This document shows positions 686-14,419 of a stretch of DNA of 30,971 nt, piece by piece. This stretch comes from a virus: the IMG/VR virus record IMGVR_UViG_3300009433_000028, positions 1 through 30,971 of that record; one strand, 5' to 3'. Every line of letters begins with the position of its first letter. The first letter of the stretch is position 1. Position numbers and translations under genes: made by a program. The notes under the pieces were generated by a model, which was not told the origin of the DNA, made no database searches, and saw only the letters and a program-made list of their open reading frames with translations.

Positions 686-875
686 TGATAATGACTGGAA
701 AGTTCATATCTCGGATGCTTCTTTATTAGAACAAGTGAAAATAAAATTTGATTTGGGAAAATCTCAGACTATTTATTATGGTAAGGGTAGTTTCAAAGAA
801 GAAACTGCTTGGGATTTAATAGTGCCAGATAAAAAAATAAATAAAGTAAAGAAATTTATAAAGGATAATTCTTGA
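654..875 (+). CDS. Small hypothetical protein
   Basis: This 73-residue protein is not recognised. It is rich in Lys and aromatic residues, with several short predicted strands (WKVHISD, QTIYYGKGSF, WDLIVPD) and a basic C-terminal helix (KINKVKKFIKDNS). It has no signal peptide or membrane segment. The ATG overlaps the primase end by 32 bases, with AGGATG just upstream as a possible binding site. Its stop overlaps the TTG start of the recombination nuclease by 3 bases. The tight packing suggests co-translation in the replication/recombination operon. The function is unknown. Confidence 0.7.
   Translation: MAKQRNIWKFNDNDWKVHISDASLLEQVKIKFDLGKSQTIYYGKGSFKEETAWDLIVPDKKINKVKKFIKDNS
861..874 (+). 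promoter_or_regulatory. RBS supporting TTG start
   Basis: AAGGA at 861-865 lies six bases before the TTG at 872. No ATG is nearby in this frame and the preceding gene ends at 875, so the TTG is the likely initiation codon of the gp47-gp46 fusion. Confidence 0.6.
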
Positions 876-3800
876 AAAAAGAAACTGTTGTAAAGGTTCC
901 TTTTCGAAAACTCAAATACATACACCACATTTCAGATATACAGATTCGTAATCTCAAGCGACATAAAGAGTACGAACAGGTTTTCGAAAGAACATATAAA
1001 CAAGTAAAAAAACATAAAGATAATGCCGTAGTCTATATCGGTGGTGATATAGCACACTCAAAAACTGAAATGTCACCTGAATTAGTCGATCAGCTCTCAC
1101 GATTATTTAAGAATCTGGCAGACATCTGTCCTACGATTCTAATCGCAGGAAATCACGATTGTAATTTAAATAATCTTTCGAGAATGGATGTTCTTTCCCC
1201 AATTGTAAATAATCTACAACATAAAGATTTACATTACCTAAAACATAGTGGTGTGTATAAATGTGCTGATGTAAAGTTTGTGGTTTGGGATGTATGGGAA
1301 AAAGAAGATGACTATATTGAGGCGAAAGATGTTGAGGGTGATACAAAAGTAGTTCTCTTTCATGGAACAGTGGATAAGTCGGAAACAGACTTAGGATATT
1401 TTTTACCATCTGATGTGAAAATTGCTAAGTTCAAAGGTTATGATTTGGGGTTGCTTGGAGATATCCACAAAAGACAGCACCTAAATAAAGAAAAAACTAT
1501 ATCCTATTGTGGTAGTCTGGTTCAACAGAATCACGGAGAAGGACTATCGCATGGTTACTTGTTATGGGATGTAGCAAAGAGAACTTCTGAGTACATTGAA
1601 GTACCGAATGACTACGGTTATTATACTATTGATATAAATAACGGAAAAGTTCCAGATTGTCCTGATATACCTAAAAAGGCTAGATTGAGAGTTAGGGTAT
1701 CTAATACAACGCCATCCCAATTGAAGAAGGCTATGACTATGATTCATAGTACATATGGTGTAAAGGAAGTTTCTGTTACAAGAACAGATTCACTAACATC
1801 TCAAGATAAAGTAAGAGGACAAAGAATTACAGTAGGTGATGTAAGAGATGCTGATTATCAGTATGGCTTGATAGAAGAATATCTAAAACAAAATCACTTT
1901 GTAGATACTGAAACTCTATTAGATATAAAAAAGATAAATAAAGAACTAAACACCTTTTTACCAGCGGATGATGTAAATAGAGGAATAACTTGGGATGTAA
2001 AGAAGTTCGAGTTTGATAATATGTTTTCTTATGGAGAAAATAATGTTGTTGACTTCACTAAACTAAATGGTATCGTTGGAATATTTGCTCCAAATGCGAG
2101 TGGTAAATCTTCATTATTAGATGCTCTATCATTTTGTTTATTCGACACATCATCAAGAGCTTATAAAGCACTCAATGTACTCAATAGTAAAAAAGATAAA
2201 TTTTATTGTAAGGCTACATTAGAAGTAGATGGATGTGAATATTATATTGAAAGAAGAGCTAAAAAGCAAAGAAGTGGTCATGTAAAAGTAGATGTTGATT
2301 TTTGGACACATGATGATGCGGGTGAAAAGTTATCTCTCAATGGAGACCAAAGAAGAACAACCGATGTAAATATTCGTAAGGTTATTGGAACTTATGAAGA
2401 CTTTATTATGACAGCTCTTTCTTTACAATCAAACTCAACTGTTTTCATTGACAAAACACAAAAAGAAAGAAAAGACTTACTTGCACAATTTATGGGTATT
2501 GGTGTATTTGACCAACTATATAATTTAGCTGCTGATGAAATATCTGATGTGAGTTCTCTGTTGAAGTCTTTCAAAAACAATAACTATGATAGAGAGTTAG
2601 CAGATATAAAAGAATCTTTGACTGGTCTAAGAAAAGAATCAAGAACTTTTTCAAAGGACAAAAAAGAACAATCGATAGATAAAAAAGATATCGATAAGAT
2701 GATGATTTCTTTGACTAAAAAGTTGAGAAAAGTAGATAACTCTGCTCTAAACATTTCTGAATTAGAAGAAAAAAAGTCTAGTCTAAGTAATAGTTTATCT
2801 ACAGCAGATAAAAAGTTTGGAGAGCTAAAAACTCTTTCTGAACAATATAAAGTTGAGGAAACTGAACTAACAGAAAAAATAAATATCTATAAAGAAAATG
2901 AGATAGATAAGAAGTTTGCACAATTTGAACAATATAGTTTAGAGAAAACTAATAATCAGATTGAGATAGATAAACTAAAAATAGAAGTACAAAACAAACT
3001 TGATAAAATTAATAAGCTTGGTAATTTAGAATATGATTCCGATTGTTCTTATTGTATGAGCAATCCTTTTACATTAGATGCTATGGAGACAGAAAAGAAA
3101 CTAAATGAAGATAAGACATTAGCAGATAAGTTTGTAAAGAAATCAGATAAATTAGAAACTATTATAAATGGCTTATCTCATATTACAGCACATAAAACAC
3201 AAATGGATGAGTGTATACAACAATTTAGTTTATTGACTTCTAATATCAGTAAAGTAGATAGTGAACAAAAACTAACTACGGAAAAGAAAAAAAATATAAT
3301 TAGCCAGTTAGCTATTATCGAGGATAAGATAAATCTATATCATGAACAAGAAAAAGATATACAATATAACATTAGTTTACAAAAAGAAATAACTTCTGTA
3401 GAAAACGAATCCGAATCTTTAGAACAAACTATAGAAGAATTGGATAAAAAATTACAATCCGTAAATGGTGAGATAAAAGTATTAGAAACTAATCGTAGAA
3501 ACATAATGTCTAATATCAAAAAGGTAGAAGAGTTAGAAGATAAATATGCTGCTTATCAATATTATATGGATGCTGTAAAAAGAGATGGTATACCTTACGA
3601 ACTTATATCAAAAGCAATCCCAACAATTGAGGGTGCTGTAAATGATATACTTTCACAGATTGTGGACTTTTCTATGATTTTAGAAATGGATGGTAAAAAC
3701 ATTAATTGTTATATAGTATACGATGATGACAATGTATGGCCATTAGAATTATCTAGCGGTATGGAACGATTTATCTCATCTCTAGCTATGCGTGTGGGAT

Positions 3801-4027
3801 TGATAAATGTATCTAACTTACCAGCACCTAACTTTTTAGCAATCGATGAGGGTTGGGGAACTATGGATTCGGATAATCTAAATTCTGTTTATAATCTATT
3901 TCAATATCTAAAGTCACAATTCCAATTTACAATGATTGTATCTCATATAGATTCTATGAGAGATGCTGTTGACACCTTATTAGAGATAAAGAAAGAGAAT
4001 ACTTTTTCTAATGTTTCATTTGACTAG
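872..4027 (+). CDS. gp47-gp46: Fused recombination nuclease gp47-gp46 (SbcD-SbcC / Mre11-Rad50)
   Basis: One 1051-residue polypeptide carries both subunits of the Mre11-Rad50 type nuclease that processes DNA ends for recombination-dependent replication in T4. Residues ~15-380 are a calcineurin-like phosphoesterase: SDIQ (D22; Gln where DxH is usual), GGDIAHS (D59), GNHD (94-96), FHGT and GDIH (H199). Residues ~382-1051 are an SMC-like ATPase: KKFEFDNMFSYGENN, Walker A APNASGKSS (K412), a long coiled coil with a CxxC zinc hook (C725, C728), signature LSSGM (960-964) and Walker B FLAIDEGWG (D992-E993). The join has almost no linker. The start is TTG at 872, supported by AAGGA six bases upstream. 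In T4 and E. coli these are two separate genes. The 3' end overlaps the minus-strand gene by 20 bases. Confidence 0.93.
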   Translation: MKKETVVKVPFRKLKYIHHISDIQIRNLKRHKEYEQVFERTYKQVKKHKDNAVVYIGGDIAHSKTEMSPELVDQLSRLFKNLADICPTILIAGNHDCNLNNLSRMDVLSPIVNNLQHKDLHYLKHSGVYKCADVKFVVWDVWEKEDDYIEAKDVEGDTKVVLFHGTVDKSETDLGYFLPSDVKIAKFKGYDLGLLGDIHKRQHLNKEKTISYCGSLVQQNHGEGLSHGYLLWDVAKRTSEYIEVPNDYGYYTIDINNGKVPDCPDIPKKARLRVRVSNTTPSQLKKAMTMIHSTYGVKEVSVTRTDSLTSQDKVRGQRITVGDVRDADYQYGLIEEYLKQNHFVDTETLLDIKKINKELNTFLPADDVNRGITWDVKKFEFDNMFSYGENNVVDFTKLNGIVGIFAPNASGKSSLLDALSFCLFDTSSRAYKALNVLNSKKDKFYCKATLEVDGCEYYIERRAKKQRSGHVKVDVDFWTHDDAGEKLSLNGDQRRTTDVNIRKVIGTYEDFIMTALSLQSNSTVFIDKTQKERKDLLAQFMGIGVFDQLYNLAADEISDVSSLLKSFKNNNYDRELADIKESLTGLRKESRTFSKDKKEQSIDKKDIDKMMISLTKKLRKVDNSALNISELEEKKSSLSNSLSTADKKFGELKTLSEQYKVEETELTEKINIYKENEIDKKFAQFEQYSLEKTNNQIEIDKLKIEVQNKLDKINKLGNLEYDSDCSYCMSNPFTLDAMETEKKLNEDKTLADKFVKKSDKLETIINGLSHITAHKTQMDECIQQFSLLTSNISKVDSEQKLTTEKKKNIISQLAIIEDKINLYHEQEKDIQYNISLQKEITSVENESESLEQTIEELDKKLQSVNGEIKVLETNRRNIMSNIKKVEELEDKYAAYQYYMDAVKRDGIPYELISKAIPTIEGAVNDILSQIVDFSMILEMDGKNINCYIVYDDDNVWPLELSSGMERFISSLAMRVGLINVSNLPAPNFLAIDEGWGTMDSDNLNSVYNLFQYLKSQFQFTMIVSHIDSMRDAVDTLLEIKKENTFSNVSFD

Positions 4028-4181
4028 AGTACATAACCTTTTTTGGTTTTAATTGTCCCCTTTTTAGACTTAGAACATATTGATTCAAGACAGCGCTCAT
4101 GGTAGTGCTCTCTTCTTTCACATATACTCTGAACCAGTCTATTAGCGATTCTTCTATAGTAAATGAATATTTCTTTTTCAT
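4008..4181 (-). CDS. Small ribbon-helix-helix-like DNA-binding protein
   Basis: This 57-residue basic protein is read on the minus strand. The pattern fits a CopG/Arc-type RHH fold: a short strand (KKYSFTI), a first helix (EESLIDWFRVYVKEES), a turn, then a second helix starting TTMSAVLNQYVLSLKRG, followed by a basic tail. Such proteins usually bind DNA as dimers and repress transcription. I chose the ATG at 4181 because GGAG lies nine bases before it. The in-frame ATG fifteen bases further up overlaps that GGAG and would have none of its own. It is the only supported minus-strand gene. It converges on the fused nuclease (20-base overlap) and diverges from the tail fibre gene. A motif of the same type as those before the plus-strand genes precedes it in its own orientation (4212-4220), which supports it being real. 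The RHH call is from pattern only. Confidence 0.6.
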   Translation of the reverse strand: MKKKYSFTIEESLIDWFRVYVKEESTTMSAVLNQYVLSLKRGQLKPKKVMYSSQMKH

Positions 4182-4200
4182 ACCGATAATCTCCATATAT

Positions 4201-4220
4201 TGTCAATATAAATAAATAGA
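4201..4220 (-). promoter_or_regulatory. Candidate promoter/operator of the minus-strand RHH gene
   Basis: Read on the minus strand, TCTATTTAT (4212-4220) is followed by TTATATTGACA (to 4201) and then the GGAG of the RHH gene. It matches the TATATTTAT nonamer found before plus-strand genes with one change. The TATTGACA continuation is shared with the site at 28365. Function as a promoter is inferred from position and recurrence. Confidence 0.45.
4207..4214 (+). promoter_or_regulatory. T4-late-promoter-like box
   Basis: TATAAATA is the exact T4 late promoter core, oriented toward the 2057-residue fibre gene. A start about 6-7 bases downstream would give a leader of about 27 bases. It is the only such box I saw correctly placed before a gene in this window, and it overlaps the minus-strand motif, so chance is possible in this AT-rich DNA. 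Confidence 0.35.
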
Positions 4221-4234
4221 TTATTTTGAAATTT

Positions 4235-4245
4235 TATATTTATAT
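4235..4245 (+). promoter_or_regulatory. TATATTTAT motif, copy before the tail fibre gene
   Basis: TATATTTATAT ends two bases before the ATG at 4248. No Shine-Dalgarno sequence is visible between it and the start. If it is a -10-type element, the transcript would be leaderless. It forms an inverted repeat with 4206-4214 (nine bases each, 22-base spacer), consistent with an operator between divergent genes. Confidence 0.45.
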
Positions 4246-4247
4246 GT

Positions 4248-10690: not shown

Positions 10691-13600
10691 ATGGATAAAC
10701 TTACAAAATACCTCATAGAACCATTCATAGAAAAAGAAGTAATTGAGGAAGGTGCTAGAGATCCTGGTATTTTCAAAGCTATATTTTTAGCTGGGGGACC
10801 TGGAAGTGGTAAATCTTTTGTAGCTCAAAAACTATTCGGTATACCTGAAAAGATAAATGTTTCTAAAACAGGTTTGAAGATGGTAAATCAAGACCAAGAA
10901 TTAGAATTGTTATTAAAAAAATACTTTGGTACAACCGATATTGATAATATGCCAGATGAACTATTTGCTGACCTAACAGGCTCTGATAAAGCAGGTAATC
11001 CCGTAGATTATGATACAAGTGGATTAAGAGCATATGCTAAATCTTTGAGTAAAGAAAGATTGAGATTATATACCAATGGAAAGTTAGGAGTAATCATAGA
11101 TGGTACAGGACACAAATATAAGAGTGTAACAAGAAAAAAGAAGAATTTAGAAAAATTAGGTTATGATTGCTATATGGTATTTGTAAATACCTCATTAGAT
11201 GTTGCTTTAGAACGAAATGAAGAAAGAGATAGAGTAGTACCATCAGGTATCGTAAAGAAAAGTTGGCAGGATGTTCAAAATAATTTGGGAGCCTTTCAAG
11301 GATTATTCGGTGGCTCAAACTTTTTAATCGTATCTAACAATAAAAAGTTATCAGATGCGCAAATACCAAAACATTTTAAAATGTTAGTTAGTAAAGGTAT
11401 AAATAAGTTTTTGGGAAGAGCACCAAAAAATCCTATAGCTAAAAAATGGTTGAGAAGAGAAAAGAAATTTCAAAAGGTATTTAAAGATCCTGGTCAATCT
11501 AAATTCTTTGAAAGTATAAAACTACCAGTAGAGATAGGTGATACTATTTTGATGGGTAAGTTCAAAAATAAAAAAGTAGTAGTAAAGTCTGTTGATTACA
11601 ATGACAAAGGAGACTTACTAATAAATGGTAGACCAGCACTAAAGTTTAGAATGGTAAAGGAAACAACATTACCATCACCAAGTCGTAAGGGTGTAAAGAA
11701 GATGAAGAAGAAAGGTGTTACTTCAGTACCTTTTGGAAGTGGTTATAAAAAAGTAAGTGAAGCGAATGCCGTAAAAGGTAGTAAAGTTCAAAAGTTTATT
11801 ACAGGTCATAATCTTACTATGAAGGGTAAGAAATATAAAGAAATAGAATTTGAAACATTGGGTGTTGATAATGGTAGAAAGATGATTACATTGAGAATTT
11901 TAGCACCAAAGAAATTATTCGGTATTGAGACACCTGTAAAATTTTCAACATTGAGAAGAGGACCTTTTACAAAAACCGATACTGGTAAAAAATTAAAAGA
12001 AGTTCAAAAGACTGTAACAGATAAAGTTTTTGATAAAAAAAGAGAATCTGGTGCTTGGACAGTTATAGGACATATGAAAAAGAAAGGTAAATCTACCTTT
12101 CACGTAAGAGATGAAAAGAGTGGTAAAAGATTTGATGTAAAATTGATGGAACAGAAACAAATCAAAAAAACAATCGGTGTATTCGGTGGAAGATTCCAAC
12201 CATTTCATTCAGGACATCTTGCTACTTATAAGTGGATGAAGTCAAAGTTTGATGAAGTCTATATAACTACATCCAATCTAAAACAATTGCCAAGACATCC
12301 TATGGACTTCAAAGAAAAAGCTCGTCATATGATAAAGATGGGTGTTCCAAAAAATAGAATTATACAAGAAAAAACTCCATATATAGCAAAAAATTTATTG
12401 AAAAAATTTGATCCTAATACTACAGCAGTCGTTTATGCAGTCGGTGGAAAAGATGCTGGTAGATTAGGTGGTAAGTACTTTCAACCTTATAATAAAAGTA
12501 AACCTATGATGGGATTTGAAGAGCATGGATATATCATAACTGCTCCACAATCTGGAACTATGAGTGGTACGAAGATGAGAGAATTATTAGGTTCTCCAAA
12601 ATATGATGATAGTGAAAAACAAAAAACATTCAAAAAAGTATTTGGATATTTTGATAAAGGTGTTTTCACTATGATGACAAATAAATTTAAACAATTATTT
12701 GAGACATACACTCTATCTGATGAGTTGATAAAAGAATATCTGATTGAAGCTAGTAATTCTGCTGCGGGAAATTTAGATGATGGTCCTTCAACATTTCATA
12801 AAGATTATGCTGAATATGTAAAAGTATCAAAAGAATGGTTAGACTCTATATATGAAGACGCTGGATGGGCAGTTTTAGATTTTATTATAAGAGATGGTGC
12901 TAAGAACTCTATAAAAGATGCATATAAATCTGTACCATTGACTTATTTAGATCATGGTCAAGAAAAGGGTTCTAATCTTGCTGTAGAAAAATATAAAAGT
13001 TGGATGGATGAAGTAATAAAACCTTTAGGTTGGGATGTTGTAAGTTGGATGGGTACTGATGCTGCTATAGATAATCTTATCGGAAGTGTGTTTGCAGCTG
13101 GTGCTAATGCAACAGAATACCTGCCAAATGAATTTCAAGTAGTAGAAGCATTTTCTAAAGATTGGTGGAAGAAAGAATTATTATTAGAGGGTGGTGCTTA
13201 TGGGCATTTGAATCATCCATTTGATAATAAAAATTTAACATTTTCAGATTTTAAAACACTAATTATTAATACACTTCAAGGTAATCTTGATAAAGAAGGT
13301 CCTGTTACAGAAAAGACTGATGGACAGAATATAATGATTAGTTGGAAGAATGGAAAATTAGTTGCAGCTAGAAACAAAGGACATATAAAGAATTTTGGTG
13401 CTAATAGTTTAGACATAAGTGGTATAAGAAATATGTTTTCTGGTAGAGGAGACATAGAAAAAGCATTTGTATCTGCTATGACAGATTTACAAAAAGCACT
13501 AAAGGGGCTAAGTAAAAAACAAAAAGACAAAATATTTGCTGAAGGTAAAAAGTTTATGTCACTAGAAGTGATGTACCCAGCAACTTCAAATGTCATACCT

Positions 13601-14419
13601 TATGATAAATCATTATTACAATTTCACGGAACTATTGAGTATGATTCTGCTGGTTCTCCAATCGGAGAAGATAGAGGAAGTGCTAGAATGTTAGCTGGTA
13701 TGATAAAACAGATAAATCAAGATGTACAAAGAACATATAGTATCACAAAACCATTTATTACACAATTGCCAGTAGTAAAGAATTTTGCTCAAAGACAAAG
13801 TTACTTTTTAGGTAAACTACAAAAACTACAAAACATCTACAAACTTACAGATAGTGCTACATTAGGTGATTATCATCAAGCATATTGGATGGAGTATATT
13901 TATAATGGTGCTAAAAATACAGATTATCCAAATCCATCAAATGATGTTCTTATGAAACTAACTAAGAGATGGGCATTTTTTGATAAGTCTTATAAAGTTC
14001 CAATGATTAAAAAAGATTTAAAGGAGTATCCAAAGTTTTTAGATTGGGTTCTATCAACTGATAAAATGGATCACGCTAAGTTACAAAAGAAACATATCAG
14101 AGATTGGGAAGTTCTTTTCTTTGAATTGGGTGCTGAAATCCTAAAAAATATGAGTGATTTCATAGCAGCTAATCCAACTAAAGCAGCTCAACAAATTCGT
14201 AAGGATTTAGTTAAGGCTATAAACAAAGTAAAAAAATCAACAGACCCAAAAGTATTGAGTACATTGAAAACTCAATTAGATAGACTTAATGCTATTGGTG
14301 GTTTGAAATCAGTTGTTCCGTCAGAAGGAATTACTTTTGTGTTCAAAGGAAAGTTATATAAATATACTGGCGCTTTTGCTCCAGCTAACCAAATCTTAGG
14401 TATGTTAAAATTCGTATAG
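10691..14419 (+). CDS. Multi-enzyme protein: P-loop kinase, NMNAT-like and KxDG ligase-like domains
   Basis: This 1242-residue protein has several modules. Residues ~30-235: zeta-toxin/polynucleotide-kinase-like P-loop NTPase (Walker A GGPGSGKS, 35-42; VIIDGTGH; VFVNTSLDVALERNEERDR). Residues ~275-320: basic beta module (PVEIGDTILMGKFKNKK). Residues ~494-640: cytidylyltransferase/NMNAT fold (GRFQPFHSGH, H506 and H509; closing motif SGTKMREL). Residues ~687-830: unknown helical domain. Residues ~834-1242: nucleotidyltransferase of ligase type with EGPVTEKTDGQN (candidate K875) and MSLEVMYP (E959). Linked chemistries would suit NAD/nucleotide salvage or RNA repair; substrates are unknown. IEE-G (20/21), LIE-A (686/687) and LLE-G (833/834) resemble gp21 cleavage sites and fall at the leader or domain borders. 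AGGA lies four bases before the ATG. Confidence 0.8.
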   Translation: MDKLTKYLIEPFIEKEVIEEGARDPGIFKAIFLAGGPGSGKSFVAQKLFGIPEKINVSKTGLKMVNQDQELELLLKKYFGTTDIDNMPDELFADLTGSDKAGNPVDYDTSGLRAYAKSLSKERLRLYTNGKLGVIIDGTGHKYKSVTRKKKNLEKLGYDCYMVFVNTSLDVALERNEERDRVVPSGIVKKSWQDVQNNLGAFQGLFGGSNFLIVSNNKKLSDAQIPKHFKMLVSKGINKFLGRAPKNPIAKKWLRREKKFQKVFKDPGQSKFFESIKLPVEIGDTILMGKFKNKKVVVKSVDYNDKGDLLINGRPALKFRMVKETTLPSPSRKGVKKMKKKGVTSVPFGSGYKKVSEANAVKGSKVQKFITGHNLTMKGKKYKEIEFETLGVDNGRKMITLRILAPKKLFGIETPVKFSTLRRGPFTKTDTGKKLKEVQKTVTDKVFDKKRESGAWTVIGHMKKKGKSTFHVRDEKSGKRFDVKLMEQKQIKKTIGVFGGRFQPFHSGHLATYKWMKSKFDEVYITTSNLKQLPRHPMDFKEKARHMIKMGVPKNRIIQEKTPYIAKNLLKKFDPNTTAVVYAVGGKDAGRLGGKYFQPYNKSKPMMGFEEHGYIITAPQSGTMSGTKMRELLGSPKYDDSEKQKTFKKVFGYFDKGVFTMMTNKFKQLFETYTLSDELIKEYLIEASNSAAGNLDDGPSTFHKDYAEYVKVSKEWLDSIYEDAGWAVLDFIIRDGAKNSIKDAYKSVPLTYLDHGQEKGSNLAVEKYKSWMDEVIKPLGWDVVSWMGTDAAIDNLIGSVFAAGANATEYLPNEFQVVEAFSKDWWKKELLLEGGAYGHLNHPFDNKNLTFSDFKTLIINTLQGNLDKEGPVTEKTDGQNIMISWKNGKLVAARNKGHIKNFGANSLDISGIRNMFSGRGDIEKAFVSAMTDLQKALKGLSKKQKDKIFAEGKKFMSLEVMYPATSNVIPYDKSLLQFHGTIEYDSAGSPIGEDRGSARMLAGMIKQINQDVQRTYSITKPFITQLPVVKNFAQRQSYFLGKLQKLQNIYKLTDSATLGDYHQAYWMEYIYNGAKNTDYPNPSNDVLMKLTKRWAFFDKSYKVPMIKKDLKEYPKFLDWVLSTDKMDHAKLQKKHIRDWEVLFFELGAEILKNMSDFIAANPTKAAQQIRKDLVKAINKVKKSTDPKVLSTLKTQLDRLNAIGGLKSVVPSEGITFVFKGKLYKYTGAFAPANQILGMLKFV

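Follow-up and report, generated by a model that had tools for sequence, protein, structure and literature searches.

The locus and its minus-strand gene

We analysed one stretch of viral DNA of 30,971 bp (the window), a virus record assigned to a T4-like myovirus by its T4-type terminase and gp20 portal. The closest isolates by portal are the Microcystis phage Mel-JY01 and the Flavobacterium phage immuto, with ~50% identity; nothing relevant was found in the literature on either phage. A small minus-strand gene lies between a convergent gene of the SbcCD type and a giant divergent gene (Table 1). The former fuses an SbcD-like nuclease and an SbcC-like ATPase in one 1051-aa ORF, corresponding to the separate genes 47 and 46 in T4. 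The 2057-aa product of the latter has no PHROG match, so that "fibre" is a label taken over from a sequence-only reading of the window. The size of this divergent neighbor is variable, reaching ~4580 aa in a 165-kb relative. Among the structural genes, a 1242-aa ORF at 10691-14419 joins AAA/zeta-like kinase and cytidylyltransferase domains.

Table 1. Genes, probable promoter boxes, and candidate operator sites at the locus (window positions).
Feature	Position	Strand	Basis
SbcD-SbcC fusion (metallophosphoesterase + SMC/AAA)	872..4027	+	convergent, overlaps RHH gene by 20 nt; Pfam Metallophos, AAA_23; PHROG 77
Predicted RHH (Arc-like) repressor gene	4008..4181	-	57 codons + stop; kept frame, PHROG 3180, CopG/Arc-like fold
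Candidate operator site 3, TTATCGGTATG, overlapping start codon	4179..4189	-	ATCGGTATG identical in 43/43 family-1 loci of the first scans
Candidate operator site 2, ATATATGGAGA	4190..4200	-	11-bp self-similarity of leaders
Shine-Dalgarno GGAGA of RHH gene	4190..4194	-	sequence; conserved in relatives
Candidate operator site 1, TTATATTGACA	4201..4211	-	11-bp self-similarity; reads TATCGGTAT in L109, L177
Probable promoter box of RHH gene, CTATTTAT, variant of ATATTTAT	4212..4219	-	same place in relatives, mostly ATATTTAT
Probable promoter box of divergent fibre gene, ATATTTAT	4236..4243	+	directional box; perfect in 31 relatives compared
Giant fibre-like gene, 2057 aa	4248..10421	+	ORF; long divergent gene here in relatives

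Relatives were collected via pattern scans of viral contigs (31 first and 42 later, counts that are inflated by redundant contigs), and their genes were called with a simple script. The minus-strand gene claimed in the sequence-only reading is real: the window and the 42 relatives all retain its frame of 57 codons, under constraint (mean pN 0.10, mean pS 0.65, pN/pS 0.16). Counted from the first ATG, the ORF would span 4008-4196, but the ATG at 4196 is absent from several relatives and was ruled out as the true start. The start is the ATG at 4181, since in several relatives no start codon stands in frame ahead of it; this ATG, the Shine-Dalgarno, and the spacer are all retained in relatives. 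The tail-to-tail overlap with the SbcD-SbcC gene, from a few to ~23 nt, occurs in all 43 loci, and a long gene is called divergently on the other side in nearly all of them where enough sequence is available. The gene had also been described as the only one on the minus strand, which is nearly so: the 165-kb relative has 148 plus and 4 minus ORFs by the simple gene caller. In the window and the 42 relatives alike, no other gene separates SbcCD from the fibre-like gene. No cognate toxin gene was found there, and a type II toxin-antitoxin pair was rejected for want of a partner. Conservation does not extend to a terminator-like hairpin inside the gene at 4092-4109 (2-6 of 6 pairs), which was likewise rejected.

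All 32 scanned members of the protein family match the PHROG 3180 "Arc-like repressor" (best E 1.3e-7). Pfam and NCBIfam gave no match above cut-offs with the protein, and a sequence search of the PDB returned a chance nanobody match only. The AlphaFold model (pLDDT 80) contains an extended, confident N-terminal segment followed by two helices; it represents a single chain, and the N-terminal strand of the ribbon-helix-helix (RHH) fold forms only in the dimer. The best PDB match in Foldseek is CopG (probability 0.96, E 0.06), with omega, CdbA, ParD, Arc, AmrZ, and MatP among the further leading matches; the E-values are weak, although the leading matches are nearly all RHH proteins. Four polar residues of the strand segment (K2, K4, S6, and T8) are invariant, as is S29, where helix B starts. 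By family match and modelled fold, the product is thus an RHH-type protein and a predicted DNA binder, as the pattern of its residues had suggested, with relatives in 42 viral contigs. No homologues were found in named phages by tblastn or in bacterial and archaeal genomes by pattern scan.

Probable promoter boxes and the 11-bp repeats

The two 9-mers reported to form an inverted repeat are exact at the stated positions (ATATAAATA, 4206-4214; TATTTATAT, 4237-4245), and the 9-mer occurs 10 times in the window, counting both strands, vs 1.8 expected. Paired arms are present in the window and the first 31 relatives, with a variable spacing of 24-29 bp, and the same element does precede both divergent genes. 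Once the relatives are aligned, the actual minus-strand box turns out to be CTATTTAT at 4219-4212, and ATATAAATA reads the same AT-rich run in a shifted register. In every lineage genome checked, ATATTTAT stands ahead of many genes in the coding-strand orientation and exceeds chance ~8- to 40-fold, and the reversed ATATTTAT is near chance in the same genomes. The inverted repeat arises because two oriented ATATTTAT boxes face away from each other; as read from these sequences, the "mirror" motif is two ordinary virus promoters facing apart. Position and direction indicate that ATATTTAT is a promoter, likely a late one, and once set apart from the regulator, the box can be studied as such.

The late box of T4 is TATAAATA. 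On the coding strand of the present lineage, we found TATTTATA in place of this T4-type box; the coding-strand box is the reverse complement of that of T4, both in the window and in Mel-JY01 (L065). A search with the T4 gp55 sequence, run without a positive control, gave no match. In the 165-kb relative of L021 (L033-L041), 8-mers from TTCGTAGC to TAGCTTTA occur five times in upstream segments vs ~0.01-0.1 expected and are possibly a second promoter class.

The leader of the RHH gene carries three 11-bp-spaced sites that extend over the start codon. Family-1 leaders, from box to start codon, are self-similar at lag 11 (z=6.1) and lag 22 (z=6.6), and score higher still at lag 9 (z=7.5); the close relationship among the main family-1 leaders makes these z-scores overstate independence. 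Self-similarity is also found in diverged family-1 members (lag 11 z=7.4, lag 22 z=4.6) and in the upstream regions of a second family described below (lag 11 z=5.0, lag 22 z=3.2), all in test windows chosen after the repeats had been seen. At 46 other ATATTTAT promoters, the 11-bp periodicity is absent both downstream (z -1.2) and upstream (z 0.1) of the box. The array of the window alone (4179-4211, minus) is weak, with p about 0.04. Clear repeats are visible in L173 (AAAAGTATCTA AAAAGTAGGTA AAAAGGATGTA) and L192 (GTATAAGATGA GTATAAAGTGA GTATAAAAATG), and L109 contains TATCGGTAT twice, 22 bp apart. Intergenic TATCGGTA occurs about once per genome, which fits a local target.

The repeat sequences follow the subgroup of the protein strand: KKYSFT/KEKVSFT occurs with TATCGGTAT, KRYNFT with GTATAA, VNIKI/VTIKI with AAGTAGkTA, and VDIKI with TATGA, a covariation that is confounded with phylogeny and comprises few independent groups. 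The paired proteins and repeat sequences offer a natural series for how an RHH strand reads DNA. Relative to the promoter box, the array is downstream in family 1 and upstream in family 2. An RHH autorepressor is expected to have tandem or inverted operator sites beside its own promoter; the 11-bp repeats lie in such a place and are absent at the 46 control promoters. Judging from the sequences, the three sites over leader and start codon are a likelier operator than the ATATTTAT box, and some of the leader conservation could serve translation instead.

Loci without the gene and a second RHH family

Scanning with the SbcC end yielded 80 loci, 54 of which carry the family-1 RHH gene, while 17 have a different small gene there, likewise on the minus strand. 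Five more have no minus-strand gene and run straight to the fibre promoter, and the remaining four hold other sequence. The 17 loci define family 2, with proteins of 50-60 aa (MEDKFVNIKIRKEYRDMLK...); their profile aligns with that of family 1 over its full length (hhalign probability 91%, E=1.2e-6). Eleven of 12 match the Arc-like repressor PHROG 582, weakly, and the family-2 model resembles Arc, MazE-mt9, CopASO, and CopG. The presence of a second RHH family in the same place suggests that the slot is kept for an RHH gene even though the protein changes.

Neither RHH family was found in the 126-kb contig of one RHH-less locus, where the family-2 search had a working positive control. This contig, which is possibly incomplete, has ATATTTAT in 11 of 63 upstream segments vs 0.8 expected. 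Mel-JY01 has such boxes in 6 of 14 upstream segments; its best family-1 match is partial (E=0.014), and PHROG 3180 gave no match. The ATATTTAT promoter set thus appears, on sequence evidence, to have no need for the RHH protein. A manA RNA (Rfam RF01745) is located just 3' of SbcCD in the RHH-less relatives L175 (3737-3932), L178 (3752-3946), and L194 (3737-3924).

Probable self-regulation, alternatives, and known systems

The product of the minus-strand gene is probably an RHH repressor of the Arc/CopG type whose main target is its own gene, with the fibre promoter as a possible further target. The gene would be transcribed from its own late-type promoter box, and RHH dimers would occupy the 11-bp array next to one another, each taking one helical turn. 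The half-sites of Arc are about one helical turn apart. In RelB, adjacent RHH dimers bind on one helix face at 12-bp half-sites (PMC2812701). The array stretches from the promoter-proximal leader across the Shine-Dalgarno to the start codon, and enough protein would shut the gene down by blocking its transcription. By analogy with Arc, CopG, and RelB, we infer both the binding of the protein to the 11-bp repeats and its repressive effect. An effect on the divergent fibre promoter is possible; its box is only about 24-29 bp away, so this promoter may be damped as well. In this way, a widespread uncultured T4-like lineage would gain a specific local regulator whose operator is predicted.

The sequence-only reading had proposed a much wider role, in which the protein binds ATATTTAT in front of all late genes and sets the timing of the entire late program as an early-to-late switch. 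ATATTTAT does stand at both divergent promoters, and the box is nearly palindromic, as are sites favored by RHH proteins. However, the box is strongly directional, the arm spacing varies, and the box remains unchanged where another RHH family and other repeats replace family 1. It is equally enriched in the 126-kb RHH-less relative and in Mel-JY01, and its persistence in relatives with no detectable RHH gene argues against a genome-wide switch; the separate 11-bp array, which other promoters lack, is a stronger candidate for the operator. Regulation of the whole motif set is therefore not supported, and we regard the global switch as very improbable. A local regulator acting in both directions, on its own gene and on the divergent fibre gene so as to set the amount of fibre, is a more serious, if still tentative, alternative. 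The shared intergenic region of <100 bp, the strict divergent pairing, and the position of the family-2 repeats between the two boxes are in keeping with it, but the family-1 repeats lie on the RHH side of their own box, away from the fibre box, and five relatives retain the fibre promoter with no RHH gene at all.

Two other readings place the function of the locus in its transcript. If late minus-strand transcription ran antisense into SbcCD, it could stop early read-through, and the protein would limit this; the tail-to-tail overlap with SbcCD in 43/43 loci and the location of the gene between a replication gene and the structural block agree with such a boundary element, which we consider unlikely in view of the unconserved hairpin and the five relatives that have no RHH gene. 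The conserved leader might instead be a site of translational control at the RNA level rather than a DNA operator, since its conservation is highest across the Shine-Dalgarno and start codon. The leader has no strong fold, and a structured RNA at the RHH locus was dismissed when no Rfam match was obtained; moreover, the family-2 repeats should not be transcribed because they are upstream of the promoter box. RNA-level control is accordingly improbable. A broader proposal combines several of these elements into a device at the module boundary: the RHH protein would tune both divergent late promoters, the antisense transcript would close the early replication operon (SbcCD) as the structural operon opens, and two or more RHH families would reuse the slot, their 11-bp operators being coded differently. 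We hold this combination to be doubtful.

The proposed self-repressor can be compared with three known systems. The Arc repressor of phage P22 is likewise small, of RHH type, and shares its fold elements with the present protein, but sequence identity is low, and the present gene belongs to a T4-like virus with late-type promoters and has three candidate sites over its own leader. Among the plasmid and toxin-antitoxin autorepressors CopG, omega, and RelB, CopG is the best fold match. RelB represses itself by dimers on adjacent sites (PMC2812701), an arrangement that is predicted here from the DNA; unlike these autorepressors, however, the gene has no toxin or replication partner and is flanked by SbcCD and the fibre-like gene. 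The probable promoters differ from T4 late promoters in reading ATATTTAT(A) on the coding strand, where T4 has TATAAATA. Nevertheless, they share with the gp55/gp33/gp45-dependent promoters of T4 (PMC2988020) a short AT-rich box close 5' of structural genes and no obvious -35 element.
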